DNA of 64,000 bases from Actinobacteria bacterium HGW-Actinobacteria-6 (GTDB lineage Bacteria; Actinomycetota; Coriobacteriia; Anaerosomatales; Anaerosomataceae), in NCBI GenBank assembly GCA_002841295.1, contig PHEU01000008.1, positions 1-64,000 of the forward strand, given 5' to 3'. Below are positions 9,991-61,056 of the stretch, in pieces. Below the pieces are notes generated by a model. It was given only the letters and a program-made list of their open reading frames with translations, was not told where the DNA came from and did not search any database. The position numbers and the translations under genes are program-made. The stretch's first letter is position 1. Each line of letters starts with the position of its first letter.

Positions 9991-10024
9991 GAGAGACAAG
10001 GCATATTAAGCATGCGTAACACTC

Positions 10025-46991: not shown

Positions 46992-46997
46992 TCATTG

Positions 46998-47762
46998 ATG
47001 TCCGAAGCCGTGCGCACATTGATACCGCACACTATTCATTACTGCTGGTTCGGTGGTGCTCCAAAGTCCGACCTGATCCTCAGATGCCAGGAATCCTGGA
47101 GCCATTTCATGCCCGGCTGGGAGATCATTGAGTGGAACGAGTCAAACTTCGACGTCACCAAGGCGCAGTATGCTCGAGAGGCATATGAAGCCAAGAAGTG
47201 GGCCTTTGTATCTGACTACGCTCGATTTGACATCCTGCAGGCGCATGGTGGGGTGTACCTCGACACGGATGTGGAGCTTCTCCAGCCTATTCCGCTGTGG
47301 GTACTTGAGAATCGCGCCTTCACTGGTATGGAATCTGGAGGGTTTGTGAACCCTGGATTGATTTTCGGGTGCGTCCAGTATCTCCCGCTCTTGTCCGAGA
47401 TCCTTGAATCCTATAACCGCAGCTCCTTCGTGACAGAAGATGGGTTGGATTTGCAGACCGTCAACAGGCGGGTGACTGGAATCCTGGAGTCACATGGATT
47501 CCGACATGAGGATGTAATCCAGCAAGTCGCCGATACGACCATTTACCCAGCTGAGTTCTTCTGTGGCTACGACCAGGATGTTCACGAGCCGAAGCTGACT
47601 GCGCATACCATTTCGATGCACCACTATGCACACACGTGGGGGCGTCCCCGAGACAAGATTAGAACAGATCTACAGCGGATTCTACGGAAGTGCATTGGAG
47701 ACTCAGCGTATCGTAGACTGCTCTCTGTTAAGAGGAGCCTTTTTGGGGTGCGTGGAGCATGA
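46998..47762 (+). CDS. glycosyltransferase, GT32-like (DXD sugar-binding)
   Basis: 254 aa from ATG 46998. The N-terminal PHTIHYCWFGG and AKKWAFVSDYARFDILQAHGGVYLDTDVE motifs are those of the OCH1/GT32-like family; DTD is the metal and nucleotide-sugar site. It adds a sugar, identity unknown, to the growing repeat unit in the cytoplasm. Codon use is less biased to C/G third positions than in genes before 46 kb. It overlaps the next gene by 4 nt. Confidence 0.85.
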   Translation: MSEAVRTLIPHTIHYCWFGGAPKSDLILRCQESWSHFMPGWEIIEWNESNFDVTKAQYAREAYEAKKWAFVSDYARFDILQAHGGVYLDTDVELLQPIPLWVLENRAFTGMESGGFVNPGLIFGCVQYLPLLSEILESYNRSSFVTEDGLDLQTVNRRVTGILESHGFRHEDVIQQVADTTIYPAEFFCGYDQDVHEPKLTAHTISMHHYAHTWGRPRDKIRTDLQRILRKCIGDSAYRRLLSVKRSLFGVRGA

Positions 47763-48853
47763 GGGTGGGGATTCTTACCTTCCACCGTGCTCTAAACTAC
47801 GGAGCCGTGCTTCAGGCGTATGCACTGCAGTGCTGCCTGAAGGGAATGGGTGCCGAGTGCGATGTCATCGACTACAGATGCGACTTCCTGGAACGGGGAT
47901 ACGGGGCGCTGCACTTGGGGACCGGGAGCCCTAGGGATATTGTCTCTGGCATGGCGCACGCTCCCGAGAGAATCATGAAGCATCGCCGTTTCCGCGAATT
48001 TCGGGACGCGCATCTGAGGCTTTCAGATGCCGCCTATACCCGCGAGATTGTTGCAGACGCCGATGAACTTTACGATCTGTTTGTCACCGGGAGTGACCAG
48101 GTGTGGAATCCTGATCTTACTGGGGATGATCTGACTTTCTATCTGGACTTCTGTGATGGGAGAAAGAGAATCTCCTACGCCGCAAGCCTTGGCAAGAGCG
48201 GATCCCTGGAGGAGTACGACAAGTTGTACCTTGAGCGGCTTTCGGAGTATAGAGCAATCTCCGTGCGCGAGGAGGACAGCAAGAACCACCTTGCGGCTTT
48301 GCTTCAGCGCGATGTCGAGTGGGTGTTAGATCCTGTGTTCCTTTTGCGGTCTGCAGAATGGGCCTCACTTGCCGCGGGTCCGTCCATGAATCGGCCCTAT
48401 ATCCTCGTTTACTGTCTGCATGAGAAGGCACTATACGGATACGCAGAGCAACTGCGAACAGCCAGCGGTCTGCACGTGGTATACGTGCCTGAGAGCATGA
48501 AGACATGGATCAAGGGAAGCAGGGTGGCAAGCCCCAGTGTGGTCGAGTTGTTGGGACTCATCAAGCATGCGGAGTTTGTGCTGACTGATTCATTCCACGT
48601 GCTTGCGTTCTCAATCATCTTCAGACGTAGCTTCAAGGTCCAACTGAAGGGGCGACTGCATGGACTCAATTCTCGAGTGACATCGCTGTTGACTGCCCTT
48701 GGGCTAGAGGAGCAGGTGATTCGCCAGGGCGACTGTCAGGAGATGGAGTTTTCGACAGTCGCGTTCGAGGCTGCAGGTCCGCTGTTGGAGGAGATGGTTG
48801 AGGAATCACTATCGTTCCTGCGAGCGGCCCTGGGCACCCGGACAACTCAGTGA
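47759..48853 (+). CDS. polysaccharide pyruvyl transferase family protein
   Basis: 364 aa. VGILTFHRALNYGAVLQAYALQ and the later FVTGSDQVWNPDL, SYAASLGKS, ISVREEDS and WVLDPVFLL segments are typical of the CsaB/WcaK family that transfers pyruvate from PEP to sugars, giving acidic ketals. FrhB-like and ferredoxin genes 1.3-2.3 kb downstream are frequent companions of this subfamily. Translationally coupled on both sides (ATGA and GTGA overlaps). Confidence 0.85.
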   Translation: MRVGILTFHRALNYGAVLQAYALQCCLKGMGAECDVIDYRCDFLERGYGALHLGTGSPRDIVSGMAHAPERIMKHRRFREFRDAHLRLSDAAYTREIVADADELYDLFVTGSDQVWNPDLTGDDLTFYLDFCDGRKRISYAASLGKSGSLEEYDKLYLERLSEYRAISVREEDSKNHLAALLQRDVEWVLDPVFLLRSAEWASLAAGPSMNRPYILVYCLHEKALYGYAEQLRTASGLHVVYVPESMKTWIKGSRVASPSVVELLGLIKHAEFVLTDSFHVLAFSIIFRRSFKVQLKGRLHGLNSRVTSLLTALGLEEQVIRQGDCQEMEFSTVAFEAAGPLLEEMVEESLSFLRAALGTRTTQ

Positions 48854-50109
48854 ATATGGGCCGAGTTCGAGATGTGTTCACGCACCTGGGGTTTGAAGCT
48901 AAGGTGTATGTGATCCTGTTCGTCGCGACATTATTCAGCGGTTCGCTATACGGCATTGTCGCGCCGTACTTCATTGTGATAGAGATTGCGCTGCTATTCT
49001 GGATGTGTGTCCAGATGCCTGGTAAGCGTCCGATGGCCTACTTTAATAGGTCGCACTATGTCCAGTTCGCCATCCTAGTGGTATTCAGCCTGTTCTTGCT
49101 GTGGCAGGTCCCGCATTCATACGTATCTTCTATCGGTTGGAGCTATGTACGGCGTTTCCTGGTGTTCTCGCTAATGTTTCTGATGGTGCCGCGTCCCGAG
49201 GTCGCCTTCTCCGCAATCAAAGCATCGAAGTACTACTCCCTCCTCGTCGCGGTATCCATAGTCATCGCGACACTACTGACTGGCGAGAAGACCGGTGGGC
49301 TGGTTGGAAGCTATCAGTATGGTGGGATGATGATGTCCGTCGCGTGCATCCTGTTCCTCGTTGACTATTTCATTGAAGAGGGACGGTCCACCGATGCCCT
49401 TGGTTTCACAATCTCGCTCGTTGCCCTGCTGATCAGCGGTAAGAGGATGTTCGCACTTCTTGTAGTGGTTGCATTTGTGCTCCTATATGCTCTGTCTAGG
49501 CGTCGTGCAGGAGTGGTGCGGGCAGCGAGACTTCTCGCTGCGGGCGCAATCATAGTTTTGCCGCTGTACTACTGGTTCGCGCCGGTCCGTGAACTCGCGC
49601 AGCGATTGCAGTTGCTGACAATGGATCCTGGATCAGCGACCAGCGGACGAAACCTACTATGGGCTGCGGCATGGGAGACGTTTCGCTCGCACAGTCTCAC
49701 GGGTATCGGGTTTGGGAACTTCGCTGCTTGGATCGGGGCGAACTATGACACGAGGACCATCGGACAGTACATGGCACACAACATCTACTACGGACTGCTA
49801 GCAGAGACGGGGATTGTCGGTTTTGTGCTGGTCGTAGGGTTGCTTGTGGTTTCGCTCATACAGTCAATCCCTGTACTCCTGCGCTTTAGGCGTGAGGAGA
49901 GTGCATTGCTGTACTACGTGCTGACAGTTTCAGTTGCATTCCAGCTATGGTTTGTCGTCTACGGACTGACCGGCAACGGCATCTACAACTGGCATGAGAT
50001 GTTTCTCTACGTAAGCGCCCTGGCGATGATGATATCGGTACAGGTTCACATGCGGACTGCAGTGAGGGGCGAATGGAACGCTACCCTCCCTGGAAGTGGC
50101 CCACGGTGA
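48850..50109 (+). CDS. O-antigen/polysaccharide polymerase-like membrane protein (Wzy)
   Basis: 419 aa with about ten hydrophobic helices and a large loop between late helices containing SATSGRNLLWAAAWETFRSHSLTGIGFGNF, in the style of the Wzy_C/O-antigen ligase domain. It is likely to polymerise lipid-linked repeat units outside the membrane. GTG 48850 overlaps the previous stop; ATG 48856 is an alternative. The stop overlaps the next ATG. Confidence 0.8.
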   Translation: MNMGRVRDVFTHLGFEAKVYVILFVATLFSGSLYGIVAPYFIVIEIALLFWMCVQMPGKRPMAYFNRSHYVQFAILVVFSLFLLWQVPHSYVSSIGWSYVRRFLVFSLMFLMVPRPEVAFSAIKASKYYSLLVAVSIVIATLLTGEKTGGLVGSYQYGGMMMSVACILFLVDYFIEEGRSTDALGFTISLVALLISGKRMFALLVVVAFVLLYALSRRRAGVVRAARLLAAGAIIVLPLYYWFAPVRELAQRLQLLTMDPGSATSGRNLLWAAAWETFRSHSLTGIGFGNFAAWIGANYDTRTIGQYMAHNIYYGLLAETGIVGFVLVVGLLVVSLIQSIPVLLRFRREESALLYYVLTVSVAFQLWFVVYGLTGNGIYNWHEMFLYVSALAMMISVQVHMRTAVRGEWNATLPGSGPR

Positions 50110-51056
50110 TGAGAATCTTCGCCGCGAAGCATCTTGATGAGACTGTTCGATCTAAGAGCACATCTGGCGGGGTCTTTGTTGCCCTGTGTGAGTACGTGCT
50201 GGGGCTTGGCGGCGTGGTGTACGGAGCGCGCTTCGATCAGGCGATGCGTGTCGTACACGATCGCGCCGTCTCGATGGACGAATGTGCAAGATTCTCAGGA
50301 TCGAAGTACGTACAGAGCGACATGGGGTCCTGCTATCGGTTGGTAAGAGAGGATATGCAGGCAGGGAGAAGGGTCCTCTTCTCAGGAACCCCGTGCCAGG
50401 TCGCAGGATTACGTTCATTCCTGGAACTCTCACGAACGGTCGGCAATCTATTGACTGTCGACCTCGTGTGTCACGGAGTCCCAAGCCCGATGATCTGGGC
50501 TGCTCACGTTGGCTTCATCCAGGCTGCTGAGCGGAGTTCCCTGCTCGACTACCGCTTTCGGGACAAGAGCGCCGGCTGGCATCGCTCACGGCATGTGGCA
50601 GTCATGGATAGGGGCGCAATATCGAATCATCGCGTAGATGCGTTTCGGGAAGTCTTCAACTTCAATTATGCCTTGCGCCCAAGCTGCCATGTTTGTCCGT
50701 TCGCAAGGCTCGACAGAGTTGCGGATATAACGCTTGGAGATTACTGGGGCGTTGGGCAGCACTTCCCAGATTTCGATGACAATCGCGGTGTATCACTGGT
50801 TATTCTGCATTCGGAGGACGGATCGGCTGCATTCGACGCGATTCGGGATCATTTCTCGTTAATTGAGCTATCGGTGGAGCAATGTCTTCAGCAACCGTTG
50901 CAGGCGCCCACGCCGCCGTCGCCGCAGCGAGCGGCGTTCTGGCGGGCGTACCGCCAGGGCGGCTACGAGGCGGCTATCAGGCGCTTCACAAGCTACGGGC
51001 TGATCAGGAGAATCGCGCGCGGACTGCGCAGGGCGATCAGGGAGTTCATGTCGTGA
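50109..51056 (+). CDS. coenzyme F420 hydrogenase beta-subunit (FrhB)-like protein in the polysaccharide locus
   Basis: 315 aa from ATG 50109 (ATGA overlap); the frame from 50073 lies inside the polymerase gene. FrhB-type motifs are KSTSGGVFVALCEYVL, GSKYVQSDMG, VLFSGTPCQVAGLRSFL, LTVDLVCHGVPSPMIW and RPSCHVCPFARLDRVADITLGDYWG, with cysteines suited to an iron-sulfur cluster and flavin binding. In the canonical single-chain form an N-terminal ferredoxin precedes it; here the ferredoxin is a separate gene directly downstream. A redox modification of a sugar or carrier is possible, but the reaction is unknown. Confidence 0.82.
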   Translation: MRIFAAKHLDETVRSKSTSGGVFVALCEYVLGLGGVVYGARFDQAMRVVHDRAVSMDECARFSGSKYVQSDMGSCYRLVREDMQAGRRVLFSGTPCQVAGLRSFLELSRTVGNLLTVDLVCHGVPSPMIWAAHVGFIQAAERSSLLDYRFRDKSAGWHRSRHVAVMDRGAISNHRVDAFREVFNFNYALRPSCHVCPFARLDRVADITLGDYWGVGQHFPDFDDNRGVSLVILHSEDGSAAFDAIRDHFSLIELSVEQCLQQPLQAPTPPSPQRAAFWRAYRQGGYEAAIRRFTSYGLIRRIARGLRRAIREFMS

Positions 51057-51289
51057 CGGATGAGAGGAAGATGACACCACCTCAAATCGTCGTGCTGGCG
51101 GTTGAATGTTGCGGGTGTACTGCGTGCGCCGCAATCTGCCCAGCAGGAGCAATCGTGATGTGTGCGGACGATGAAGGCTTCGTGTATCCCGAGATTGACC
51201 GCGCCGTGTGTACAGCCTGCATGCTCTGTGTCCGCGTGTGCCCGATGCGACGTGTGACGAGTGCGCCCGTGCGCGGGGGTACAGCGTGA
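51053..51289 (+). CDS. 2[4Fe-4S] ferredoxin
   Basis: 78 aa from GTG 51053 overlapping the FrhB-like stop. Two cluster motifs are present: C-x2-C-x2-C-x3-C-P in VECCGCTACAAICPAG and CTACMLCVRVCP. The frame from 50882 reads over the previous gene. Likely electron donor to or acceptor from the FrhB-like partner. It overlaps the flippase start by 4 nt, so it belongs to the polysaccharide operon. Confidence 0.88.
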   Translation: MTDERKMTPPQIVVLAVECCGCTACAAICPAGAIVMCADDEGFVYPEIDRAVCTACMLCVRVCPMRRVTSAPVRGGTA

Positions 51290-52752
51290 GCTTCCACGTG
51301 GCGCCCAGAAGCCTCAGAGCTCGCTATGGGGCGATGCCTTTACCAGTTCGTTCCGCCTTGTGGTTTACCTTTGCAGGGATCACCCTCAAAGCGATAGCCA
51401 TGCTTACAACGCCCATCTTCACACGCATAATGACGACGGACCAGTACGGTCTTTACAGCCTGTATAACTCCTGGTTCCAAGTGCTCATGGTCATCACAAC
51501 ATTCCGTCTGACTGCCGCTGTATTCAACAAGGGGATGAGTATCTTCCCAGAAGCGCGCGACGAATACACGGCCACCATGCAGACCACTTCTACGGCGCTC
51601 GTAGTGGTAGCGATGGTGGTGTACGCGGTGTTTCACGGGCGGTTTGACGCGATCACAGGCCTGCCGTCTGTAGTCATGATTGCCATGTTTAGTGAGCTCT
51701 TGTTCAGTCCCTCGGTGGCATTCTGGACCGCGCGTGAGAGGTATGACTACCACTACAGGCCGGTTGTGATAGTGACTGTTGGTATCTCCGCGCTAACGGC
51801 AATCGCAGGGGTGGTCGCGGTAGTGATGTCGGGTGACAAGGCCGTTGCCCGGATACTTGCCGGTGCGGTTGTGAGTACGGGCATAGGGATTGCAATCTAC
51901 GTTCGGAATATCAGGCGGGCTGGCAGGTTGTTCGTTCCTGCATACGCGCGCTATGCGCTGATGTTCAATCTCCCGCTGGTGCCACACTATCTCTCAATGT
52001 ACGCACTGGACCAGCTTGATCGCATCATGGTGGCGAGAATGGTCAGCCTATCAGCTGCTGCTATCTACAGCGTAGGCTACACGGTTGGGCTGGCCATTCG
52101 AGTCGCAACCGACAGTGCTTCTGCAGCCTTGATCCCGTGGCAGTACCGGCAGTTGGAGGCGGATAACCTTCGCGGCTTGGGAAGGAGACTGTCCCAAGTG
52201 TTCGTACTCTACGCATTTTTTGTCCTGTTCTTCGTCGCGCTTGCACCGGAGTTAGTGGCGGTGCTCGGGGGGAGCGCGTACCAAGGCGCAATCTACGTAG
52301 TACCCCCGGTGTCTGTTGCCACGTTCTTCATCTTCGCCTATATGATGTTCGGCAATATCGAGGTCTATTACGATGCGACCAAGATGATGACGTATGGATC
52401 CGTAGTGGCGGCAGTAGCCAACGTCGCCTTGAACGCGGTGTATATCCCTCGATTTGGCTACGTCGCGGCAGGTTACACGACACTCGCGTGCTATGGCGGA
52501 CTAGCGGCAGCGCATTACGTGTATGTGACGAGGGTCGTTCGCGTGCGTGTTGACGGCGGGCGTATTGTCGACGCAAAGGTGATGCTTGGGCTGACGGCTG
52601 GACTTCTAGCAGGAATGGCGCTTCTCGTGGCGACCTATCAAACCCCAGGTGTGAGGTATGTCTTGATAGTGCTGGGGTGTGTCGGGCTGTATCTGCAGCG
52701 AACTAGAATCAGGGCTCTGCTGGGCAGCATCAATGAACCTAGGGCTCAGTGA
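51286..52752 (+). CDS. polysaccharide flippase (Wzx/MATE-like)
   Basis: 488 aa with 12-14 hydrophobic helices. ALWFTFAGITLKAIAMLTTPIFTRIMTTDQYGLYSLYNSW at the N-terminus is the polysaccharide biosynthesis/export family pattern. It moves lipid-linked repeat units across the membrane. GTG 51286 follows GCGGGGGT; ATG 51334 is an alternative that would start just before the first helix. Confidence 0.88.
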   Translation: MSFHVAPRSLRARYGAMPLPVRSALWFTFAGITLKAIAMLTTPIFTRIMTTDQYGLYSLYNSWFQVLMVITTFRLTAAVFNKGMSIFPEARDEYTATMQTTSTALVVVAMVVYAVFHGRFDAITGLPSVVMIAMFSELLFSPSVAFWTARERYDYHYRPVVIVTVGISALTAIAGVVAVVMSGDKAVARILAGAVVSTGIGIAIYVRNIRRAGRLFVPAYARYALMFNLPLVPHYLSMYALDQLDRIMVARMVSLSAAAIYSVGYTVGLAIRVATDSASAALIPWQYRQLEADNLRGLGRRLSQVFVLYAFFVLFFVALAPELVAVLGGSAYQGAIYVVPPVSVATFFIFAYMMFGNIEVYYDATKMMTYGSVVAAVANVALNAVYIPRFGYVAAGYTTLACYGGLAAAHYVYVTRVVRVRVDGGRIVDAKVMLGLTAGLLAGMALLVATYQTPGVRYVLIVLGCVGLYLQRTRIRALLGSINEPRAQ

Positions 52753-57318: not shown

Positions 57319-57843
57319 CGTGCCAGCACTTGCTTTGAACTCGCAGCGGAAGTGCTACGGCCCGCCGGTTTGGAGCGCGAACTACTCCGTTTGAGCTCGA
57401 ATACGTTTCCGTCACGCGCTCCTCGACGCAAGAACTCCGTGCTGGATTGTTCGCGCGCCGCGTCTCTCGGCGTGGGCATGCCAGGCGAGGTGCACGGAGT
57501 CATCCGTCGCCCTTCCACATTCAGCACCGATCGCATTGATCACAACTACCGCGACCCGCATGACTCGGGCGCGCGTATGTTCCTGCACTACGGCGAACTC
57601 ACCGACGGCACCGGATTGCGCCGGATTCTAGAGAAGGTGCACCTGGACGACGTCTACAACCTCGGCGCGCAGTTGCATGTGAAGGTGTCGTTCGACATGC
57701 CCGAGTACACACCAGACGTGGTCGGCACCGGTACGTTGCGGTTGCTTGATGCAGTGCGCGACTACATTGGCATCTCCGGCAAACAGGTTCGGTTCCGTCA
57801 GGTTGGTTCCTCGGAGTTGAGGTTTGCTGCTCCACCCCTGTGA
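57319..57843 (+). pseudogene. composite remnant: 3' part of rmlD joined in frame to 5' part of gmd
   Basis: The frame reads first as an internal/C-terminal rmlD piece (ELAAEVLRPAGLEREL..., 39 of 49 residues identical to the rmlD at 60205-61056), then, after MP at about 57482, as gmd residues about 28-145 (EVHGVIRRPSTFSTDRIDH...), closely similar to the gmd at 61931. It has no start codon context or ribosome-binding site, lacks the gmd N-terminal dinucleotide motif and the YAASK catalytic motif, and stops at 57843. It is a recombination or deletion relic, not a functional enzyme. Confidence 0.85.
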
Positions 57844-59208: not shown

Positions 59209-60212
59209 AACTCCTCGTCTGTGGCGGAGCCGGGTTCATCGGCTCCGCGTTCGTTCGCCGTCAGATCCAGCTGCATGATGATGTTGAGGTCGTGTGCCTC
59301 GACAAGCTCACGTACGCGGGTAACCTTGATAACCTTGCGCCTGTGGCAGAAGACGCCCGCTACACGTTTGTGGAGGGGGACATCTGCGACCGTGAGGTCG
59401 TGGAGGCTGCCGCCGCCGGAGTGGACGCTATTGTTAACTTTGCGGCGGAAACGCACGTAGACCGCTCGATAGCTGAGCCCGATGCGTTCATCCGTACGGA
59501 TGTTCTCGGCACGCATACGCTGCTTGAGGTTGTGCGCGAGCGCGGGATCGGACGCCTTGTGCAGGTCTCAACCGACGAGGTGTACGGCTCGATCGACGAA
59601 GGCTCCTTCACGGAAGAGAGCCAGATCACGCCGTCGAGTCCGTACTCGGCAAGCAAGGCCGGTGGCGACTTGCAGGTGCTGGCGTACCACAGGACCTTCG
59701 GCCTGCCGGTGATGATCACGCGCGGGAGCAACACCTACGGGCCGTACCAGTACCCGGAGAAGCTGATACCACTCTTTGTGACCAATGCGCTTGAGGGCAA
59801 GAAGATGCCGCTTTACGGCGATGGCATGAACGTGCGCGACTGGCTGCATGTGGACGATCACTGCTCGGGCATCGAGTGGGTTCTCGGCAAGGGTGAACCC
59901 GGCGAGGTCTACAACGTCGGTGGCGGCAACGAGCGCACCAACCGTGAGATCACATCCATCATCTTGGATGAGCTGGGGCTTTCTGAGGACTCGATCGAGT
60001 GGGTCACGGACCGGCCCGGTCACGATCGCCGCTACTCGCTGGATACCGGCAAGCTACGCGCGCAGGGCTGGGCGTCTGAGGTCGACTTTGAGCAAGGCCT
60101 GCGCGACACCATCCGCTGGTACCGGGACAACGAGACCTGGTGGCACAAGATCAAGCACGGCGAGGGCGAGTTTGCGCAGTGGCAGAAGCGGTGGTACGAA
60201 GACCGTGCCTAG
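59205..60212 (+). CDS. rmlB: dTDP-glucose 4,6-dehydratase
   Basis: 335 aa SDR enzyme. NAD-binding GGAGFIGSAFVR, LDKLTYAGNLDNL, the STDEVYG active-site loop with Asp-Glu, and catalytic YSASKAGGD are intact. It forms dTDP-4-dehydro-6-deoxyglucose. It overlaps rmlC and rmlD, indicating one transcript. Confidence 0.97.
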   Translation: MKLLVCGGAGFIGSAFVRRQIQLHDDVEVVCLDKLTYAGNLDNLAPVAEDARYTFVEGDICDREVVEAAAAGVDAIVNFAAETHVDRSIAEPDAFIRTDVLGTHTLLEVVRERGIGRLVQVSTDEVYGSIDEGSFTEESQITPSSPYSASKAGGDLQVLAYHRTFGLPVMITRGSNTYGPYQYPEKLIPLFVTNALEGKKMPLYGDGMNVRDWLHVDDHCSGIEWVLGKGEPGEVYNVGGGNERTNREITSIILDELGLSEDSIEWVTDRPGHDRRYSLDTGKLRAQGWASEVDFEQGLRDTIRWYRDNETWWHKIKHGEGEFAQWQKRWYEDRA

Positions 60213-61056
60213 TCGCGTACTGATCGCCGGCGCCGGCGGGATGCTCGGCACGGCGCTGCAGATGGTACTGGCCGGCCGCAACGTCGAAGTCACGGCTCCG
60301 TCTGAGGCAGAGTTCGACATCACCGATGAGCCTCGCACCCGCGCGGTTCTGCGCGCGTTTGCAGCCGCTGGCGGGGGAGTGCTCATCAACGCGGCAGCGT
60401 ACACCAACGTGGAAGCCGCGGAGGACAACGCTGAGCTCGCGTATCGCGTGAACGAGACTGGTGCACGCATCCTTGCTGAGGCAGCGCATGACCTCGGCGT
60501 GGGATTTGTGCACGTATCGACCGACTTCGTCTTCGACGGCACCAGAGATGGCGCGTACTCGGAGTACCTCGTGACCAATCCGCTCTCCGTGTACGGCGCG
60601 TCCAAGCTTGCAGGTGAGCGCGCGGTGCTCGAGGTCTGCCCCCAGGCGCTGATCGTGCGCACGGCGTGGGTCTTTGGGCCCGGCGGGCTCAACTTCCCGG
60701 CGAAGATACTGGAGCTTGCGCGCACGCGGGACTCGCTCTCTGTCGTGACGGATGAGATCGGCTCGCCCACGTACACACTCGATCTGGCGGCTGGGATTCT
60801 CGGCCTGGTGGATGCCGGTGCTTCCGGCATCGTGCATCTGGCGGGCGCTGGTTCTTGCAGCCGATATGAGCTTGCCGCAGAGGTACTGCGCCTGGCCGGT
60901 TTGGAGCGCGAACTGGTTCCGGTGACATCGGATGCGTTTCCGTCGCGCGCCGCTCGGCCAAAGAACTCGGTTCTGGATTGTTCACGCGCCGCATCTCTTG
61001 GCGTCACGATGCCGGAATGGCGCGATGCCCTGGAGCGGTTCGTTCAACGCGCATAG
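60205..61056 (+). CDS. rmlD: dTDP-4-dehydrorhamnose reductase
   Basis: 283 aa from GTG 60205 overlapping rmlB by 8 nt; the frame from 59848 runs over rmlB. NAD(P)-binding GAGGMLGTAL, STDFVFDG and catalytic YGASKLAGE are present. It completes dTDP-L-rhamnose synthesis. The C-terminal segment (about 226-275) is the parent sequence of the remnant at 57319-57485. Confidence 0.95.
   Translation: MPSRVLIAGAGGMLGTALQMVLAGRNVEVTAPSEAEFDITDEPRTRAVLRAFAAAGGGVLINAAAYTNVEAAEDNAELAYRVNETGARILAEAAHDLGVGFVHVSTDFVFDGTRDGAYSEYLVTNPLSVYGASKLAGERAVLEVCPQALIVRTAWVFGPGGLNFPAKILELARTRDSLSVVTDEIGSPTYTLDLAAGILGLVDAGASGIVHLAGAGSCSRYELAAEVLRLAGLERELVPVTSDAFPSRAARPKNSVLDCSRAASLGVTMPEWRDALERFVQRA

Follow-up and report, generated by a model that had tools for sequence, protein, structure and literature searches.

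Redox genes in an exopolysaccharide locus

The window discussed here is a stretch of 64,000 nucleotides (contig PHEU01000008.1, positions 1 to 64,000 of the forward strand, assembly GCA_002841295.1) from Actinobacteria bacterium HGW-Actinobacteria-6, a member of the Coriobacteriia. It carries five overlapping, head-to-tail genes at 47759-52752, which encode a pyruvyl-transferase-family protein (PST), a Wzy-type polymerase, an FrhB-family flavin/Fe-S reductase, a 2[4Fe-4S] ferredoxin (Fd) and a Wzx-type flippase (Table 1). Neighbouring genes share 1-4 bases at every junction, including that between PST and the preceding GT32-type glycosyltransferase gene (47759-47762); in order from there, the junction letters are ATGA, GTGA, TGATG, GTGA and GTGA. 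An earlier, sequence-only reading of this DNA had claimed that PST, FrhB and ferredoxin are translationally coupled with the polymerase and flippase. The overlaps bear this out, and the coordinates and gene calls of that reading (FrhB start at 50109; ferredoxin at 51053-51289) are correct. The polymerase gene separates PST from FrhB, and FrhB (PF04432) is present as one copy in the genome. Wzz/Wzc-like, GT32, two GT4 and dTDP-sugar genes, the last named from their translations, lie around the module and identify the region as an exopolysaccharide (EPS) locus.

Table 1. Genes of the module and its upstream neighbour in the window
Feature	Position	Strand	Assignment and remarks
GT32-type glycosyltransferase	46995..47762	+	PF04488; overlaps the PST start; neighbour of the module
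PST, pyruvyl-transferase family, S-type	47759..48853	+	PF04230, 103 bits (cut-off 25.3); residues R170, S278, H280 and R306 (own numbering)
Wzy-type polymerase / O-antigen ligase family	48850..50109	+	PF04932, 62 bits; between PST and FrhB
FrhB-family flavin/Fe-S reductase	50109..51056	+	PF04432, 78 bits (cut-off 23.3); PF04422, 25.7 bits (cut-off 22); no ferredoxin domain of its own
2[4Fe-4S] ferredoxin	51053..51289	+	Several Fer4 models; two CxxCxxCxxxCP motifs; separate gene 3' of FrhB
Wzx-type flippase	51286..52752	+	PF01943, 55 bits; overlaps the ferredoxin stop

Linkage of FrhB and PST across genomes

A gene-neighbourhood survey of FrhB and pyruvyl transferase, the check suggested in the sequence-only reading, reveals close linkage both within the class and beyond it. 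The window FrhB was searched in 396 genomes of the same class, 81 of which had a match; PF04230 was then searched in 41 FrhB-matching genomes and in 35 without a listed FrhB match, and a PST within 5 kb of FrhB was counted as linked. The 41 genomes contain 60 FrhB places, 59 of which have a PST linked in this sense, always on the same strand; the lone exception is an interrupted copy. A sixty-first row, G364:C31, was left out as the second piece of that interrupted gene, into which adjoining ORFs cut. Conversely, 55 of the 84 Pfam-detected PST places in the class genomes lie near FrhB. These linked and unlinked counts are uncorrected for common descent.

A scan of named contigs yielded at least 585 FrhB relatives, the best 80 of which were examined for PSTs using a profile derived from the Pfam-detected set. 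A PST lies within 5 kb at 63 of these 80 loci (62 on the same strand) and at 44 of the 53 whose sequence extends 5 kb or more to either side. By record title, the 80 span Bacillota, Bacteroidota, Myxococcota, Fibrobacterota (Fibrobacter) and a Desulfobulbaceae bacterium. The pair is also found on annotated plasmids of Ruminococcus albus 7, Pseudobutyrivibrio and the alphaproteobacterium Dinoroseobacter shibae, and on the R. albus plasmid FrhB is followed by a separate ferredoxin, the same split order as in the window. Many bacteria, mostly anaerobes, have in their EPS loci a PST with a ferredoxin-linked flavin reductase next to it or, in some cases, joined to it in one protein.

Unusual FrhB genes were also seen. 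One copy (L210:6730-8590) is seemingly interrupted and adjoins ORFs that look transposase-like by eye, and another (G408:C2) carries an internal TGA. On a Haloferax mediterranei plasmid (L214:6687-10107), a different FrhB-family gene overlaps a gene annotated as ferredoxin-nitrite reductase, outside any EPS locus.

Split and fused domain architectures

Domain architecture was compared over 124 FrhB rows, after 11 of 135 hidden Markov model (HMM) hits had been dropped for scores below 280 bits or masked letters. The N-terminus of FrhB bears a fused ferredoxin in 109 rows; ferredoxin follows FrhB as a separate gene (the window form) in 9 and precedes it as a separate gene in 3; in all, it is fused or adjacent in 121, and no ferredoxin was found for the other 3. 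The earlier description of the two domains as usually fused, but here split with FrhB first, agrees with these counts. Splitting costs 7 changes on the tree of these rows. A frameshifted fusion as the origin of the FrhB-first split is excluded, because the fused form has ferredoxin first. Three FrhB proteins of 559-650 aa (L065:7309-9261, L066:9068-10852 and L072:9173-10852) open with an additional, incomplete FrhB half ahead of the complete FrhB; their ferredoxin is encoded in a separate ORF.

Single chains uniting all three domains occur in two orders, Fd-FrhB-PST in five loci (L069, L073, L076, L083 and L090) and PST-Fd-FrhB in four (L163, L170, L175 and L177). On the FrhB tree, which includes four of the five Fd-FrhB-PST chains, these fusions cost 4 changes. 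The occurrence of both orders provides good evidence for a joint function of the three domains. Combined with the 59/60 co-location, it supports a functional grouping of FrhB and ferredoxin with PST, as judged from sequence, and makes a ferredoxin-linked step in glycan assembly likely. To this extent the ferredoxin-driven step claimed by the sequence-only reading stands; the electron flow, substrate and product considered below are proposals.

A different view is that FrhB and ferredoxin are incidental to the glycan chemistry, serving in redox sensing or regulation or simply hitch-hiking, while PST makes a normal pyruvate ketal. PSTs of the type that predominates beside FrhB (the S-type, described below) do occur without it, as this view would allow, but the near-universal co-location in the class, the fusions and the range of phyla among the record titles (Bacillota, Bacteroidota, Myxococcota, Fibrobacterota and more) make it very unlikely.

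A distinct PST subfamily

The window PST scores far above the cut-off of PF04230 (Table 1) and far below that of the CsaB equivalog TIGR03609 (19.4 versus 213.1 bits), and a sequence search returned no PDB relative at E 1. It shares with the ketal pyruvyl transferases CsaB, WcaK and Pvg1p the Pfam family, a GT-B-like fold and the invariant Arg and His of the phosphoenolpyruvate (PEP) site. Mutants of CsaB show R148, H308 and K328 to be critical for binding PEP, and docking adds R306 (PMC10435577); the residues named for Pvg1p are R217 and R337 (PMC4872226), and in the available parts of both papers the second PEP-site Arg is based on docking or modelling. Alignment columns were assigned to CsaB residues by motif order, the alignment itself containing no CsaB sequence.

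The first PEP-site Arg (CsaB R148) is kept in all 84 Pfam-detected class PSTs and the His (H308) in 81, with 3 gaps; every one of the 55 FrhB-linked PSTs retains both, as R170 and H280 in the window. Of the linked PSTs, 51 have Ser/Thr in the CsaB R306 column (S278 in the window) and 4 have Arg, against Ser/Thr in 9, Arg/Lys in 18 and gaps in 2 of the 29 unlinked ones. Ser/Thr is thus found in 51/55 linked versus 9/27 readable unlinked PSTs (Fisher p 3e-8, uncorrected for descent). At the K328 column, Arg is present in 48 of the 55 linked PSTs and Lys in 21 of the 29 unlinked. Unlike CsaB and Pvg1p, then, the window PST has Ser at CsaB R306/Pvg1 R337, Arg at CsaB K328 and a linked redox partner. 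E. coli WcaK belongs with the Arg type. When a wider set was collected by HMM, 109 S-type and 32 R-type PSTs separated at these columns, and a GSDQ-x-W motif is conserved in the S-type. An S-seeded PST HMM overlooked R-type PSTs (for example in L130), and the linked/unlinked statistic uses the Pfam-detected proteins. As far as their residues tell, most FrhB-linked 'pyruvyl transferases' are a distinct subfamily with an altered donor pocket.

One FrhB-less S-type PST, in an EPS locus (L186:5386-8300), adjoins a thiamine-diphosphate enzyme that resembles MenD (180 bits with TIGR00173, below the cut-off of 244). PST and FrhB could act in series on a donor other than PEP, the group that they attach not being PEP-derived lactate but, for example, a longer hydroxy-acid ether. 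Alteration of both the R306 and the K328 equivalents in S-type PSTs would fit another donor, as would this MenD-like neighbour and the occurrence of 2,4-dihydroxypentanoic acid ethers in bacterial glycans, described in the available part of PMC10609480. However, the PEP-relevant Arg and His identified by the CsaB mutants are kept in all linked PSTs, and we consider a different donor distinctly unlikely.

Fold and cofactors of FrhB

The AlphaFold2 model of the window FrhB (pLDDT 96.1) gives 20 Foldseek matches under E 0.001, all of them FrhB-family chains. These fold matches, together with scores above the Pfam cut-offs, place the protein in the FrhB_FdhB family (PF04432/PF04422). Four cysteines, C96, C121, C193 and C196, are invariant in an alignment of 78 rows. 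The best structural matches are F420-reducing FrhB, FpoF and Fsr (Z 16-19.6), with Z 19.6 for FrhB of the F420-reducing hydrogenase (9r51).

Unlike these proteins, the window FrhB falls short of the equivalog cut-offs, scoring 17.4 bits against the 331.5 of TIGR03289 (F420-reducing FrhB), and CofD (TIGR01819) exceeds its cut-off in none of the 41 FrhB genomes, whereas three control genomes pass. The best CofD score in the window's own genome, which is 95% complete, is 29 bits against a cut-off of 257. Dependence on F420 appears unlikely from these scores. PF04432 membership and database names would favour an ordinary F420-dependent enzyme, and the sequence-only reading had raised the same prospect for homologues as a challenge to itself; the equivalog and CofD results contradict it, and we reject it as almost certainly wrong.

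Other members of the family act on chlorophyll substrates. The 8-vinyl reductase BciB, annotated as frhB, is a flavin adenine dinucleotide (FAD)-containing Fe-S protein to which reduced ferredoxin supplies the electrons for reducing a vinyl group, according to the available part of PMC4836224; HCAR, a hydroxymethyl-group reductase, matches the window model in fold (5dqr, Z 15.8). The window FrhB is like both in family, and differs from them in being tied to a sugar PST and to a 2[4Fe-4S] domain, whether encoded nearby or fused. The host genome encodes pyruvate:ferredoxin oxidoreductase domains at 4 places, so reduced ferredoxin should be available.

A candidate route to lactyl ethers

Gene overlap, conserved linkage, the three-domain fusions, the changed PST site, the FrhB fold and the lack of any sign of F420 synthesis together suggest that PST and Fd/FrhB form a reductive-pyruvylation module yielding a lactyl (1-carboxyethyl) ether, a reading to which we give an even chance. 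A PEP-using transferase combined with a C=C reductase that draws on ferredoxin points to transfer of an enolpyruvyl group and its subsequent reduction. PST would transfer the enolpyruvyl group of PEP to one sugar hydroxyl of a lipid-linked repeat unit or nucleotide precursor. The adjacent ferredoxin, reduced by pyruvate:ferredoxin oxidoreductase, would feed electrons to FrhB, a putative FAD/[4Fe-4S] reductase, which would then reduce the C=C bond of the enol ether; vinyl-group reduction by BciB offers a precedent by analogy. The sugar would carry a lactyl ether in place of a cyclic pyruvate ketal, and Wzx and Wzy would subsequently export and polymerise the lactylated unit.

The proposed logic is like that of MurA and MurB in muramic acid synthesis, where enolpyruvyl transfer from PEP is followed by flavin reduction to a lactyl ether. 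MurB uses NADPH, whereas ferredoxin would take its place here, and PST and FrhB come from unrelated families: a Pfam scan of the two matched only PF04230 and PF04432/PF04422, with no MurA/MurB homology. The cps operon of Enterococcus faecalis presumably contains a MurB-family gene. The protein families themselves are known, and FrhB-PST pairs are frequent in databases; the literature searched, as far as its text was available, assigns the pair no function. The sequence-only statement that no chemistry has been described therefore holds for the pair in that literature, but not for the likely product class, since 1-carboxyethyl ethers are well known.

Klebsiella capsule types and lactyl sugars

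According to the available parts of the sources cited in this section, 1-carboxyethyl sugars are familiar constituents of O-antigens and capsules (PMC8466920, PMC10609480), and the CPS-C polysaccharide of E. faecalis carries lactic acid on O-3 of Galf (PMC3060912). Bifidobacterium longum 35624 was considered as a lactyl example and dropped, the text seen describing no lactyl in its EPS, and literature passages on Klebsiella oxytoca 0.062 held no relevant gene content.

Among the 46 Klebsiella K types that lack a pyruvate ketal, a PST gene is present only in K8, K22, K37 and K66 (PMC4616057). O-lactyl sugars are tabulated for K66 (beta-Glc) and for K22 and K37 (beta-GlcA), and for no other type (PMC6856556, Table 1, columns read by tab position); a reference title in PMC3857182 gives the K22 sugar as 4-O-[(S)-1-carboxyethyl]-glucuronic acid. 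K8 is tabulated with pyruvylated galactose (PMC6856556), so its status differs from that in PMC4616057. The K22 and K37 clusters are alike except for one acetyltransferase frameshift (PMC3857182). The chance that all three lactyl types fall among the four PST-bearing ones is 2.6e-4, or 0.003 with K22/K37 counted once, and the match amounts to a natural experiment in keeping with reductive pyruvylation. The 79 clusters of this Klebsiella set include a single 'coenzyme F420 hydrogenase' gene and a pair of 'nitroreductase' genes, the counts expected if K66 uses an F420-hydrogenase-like enzyme and K22/K37 a nitroreductase; the source text leaves the K types of these genes unstated.

Exceptions and alternative chemistry

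Several observations weigh against reductive pyruvylation. S-type PSTs exist without FrhB (9 of the 27 readable unlinked proteins, one of which, G364:C20, appears misaligned), and no reductase is evident by eye, from ORF starts only, beside six such loci. R-type PSTs are in turn paired with FrhB, in 4 of the 55 linked cases and in 12 of 98 separate-gene rows collected by the S-seeded HMM. Seven Fd-FrhB genes of Clostridium, Pelosinus and relatives (L126, L129, L131, L132, L133, L138 and L140; FrhB near position 10000 of each, 5015 in L140) form a 100/100 clade without a PST within 5 kb, which implies that FrhB of this kind also has another role; no EPS locus is evident around the gene in L126 and L132, the two inspected. 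Neither protein is, on these three counts, strictly tied to the other. To our knowledge, none of the strains with an inspected FrhB locus has a known glycan structure. Finally, the source does not assign the Klebsiella flavoenzyme genes to K types, which leaves the reductase half of that argument conjectural, and the PST half rests on at most two independent clusters.

Some of these exceptions would also suit a scheme of two separate steps, with Fd/FrhB acting on the sugar itself by reduction or deoxygenation and PST forming an ordinary ketal on that residue or on one next to it. The PST-less clade and the pairing of R-type, CsaB-like PSTs with FrhB are compatible with it, as is the structural kinship with HCAR. 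A separate step would have no need of PST, however, and the repeated two-order fusion of the same three domains, along with the changed PST site, indicates one shared substrate; sugar reduction thus seems unlikely.

Taking reductive pyruvylation as the preferred reading, a broader proposal is possible, if doubtful: that PST-Fd-FrhB serves widely as a synthase of lactyl ethers on surface glycans, encoded by three genes, by two or as a single polypeptide. With its Arg-to-Ser and Lys-to-Arg changes, the PST would then no longer close the ketal ring and would pass the enolpyruvyl ether to FrhB. Such a synthase might explain the 1-carboxyethyl sugars of many polysaccharides, and aerotolerant lineages may swap FrhB for other flavin reductases, such as a nitroreductase in Klebsiella K22/K37.

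Another feature of the window

The start of an ORF at 57352-57843 duplicates the C-terminal end of an rfbD-like protein (59848-61056), and the ORF resembles a recombination remnant. Its remainder is similar to the start of a GDP-mannose 4,6-dehydratase.

Implications

If reductive pyruvylation is correct, the module would provide an enzyme route for 1-carboxyethyl (lactyl) ether sugars, known antigenic substituents of glycans for which the searched literature, available in part, names no route. The natural single-chain fusions make the hypothesis directly testable. The FrhB family would gain a role beyond F420 and chlorophyll chemistry, and many genes annotated as 'pyruvyl transferase' may have a product other than a pyruvate ketal; this would alter the prediction of structures from capsule and EPS loci.

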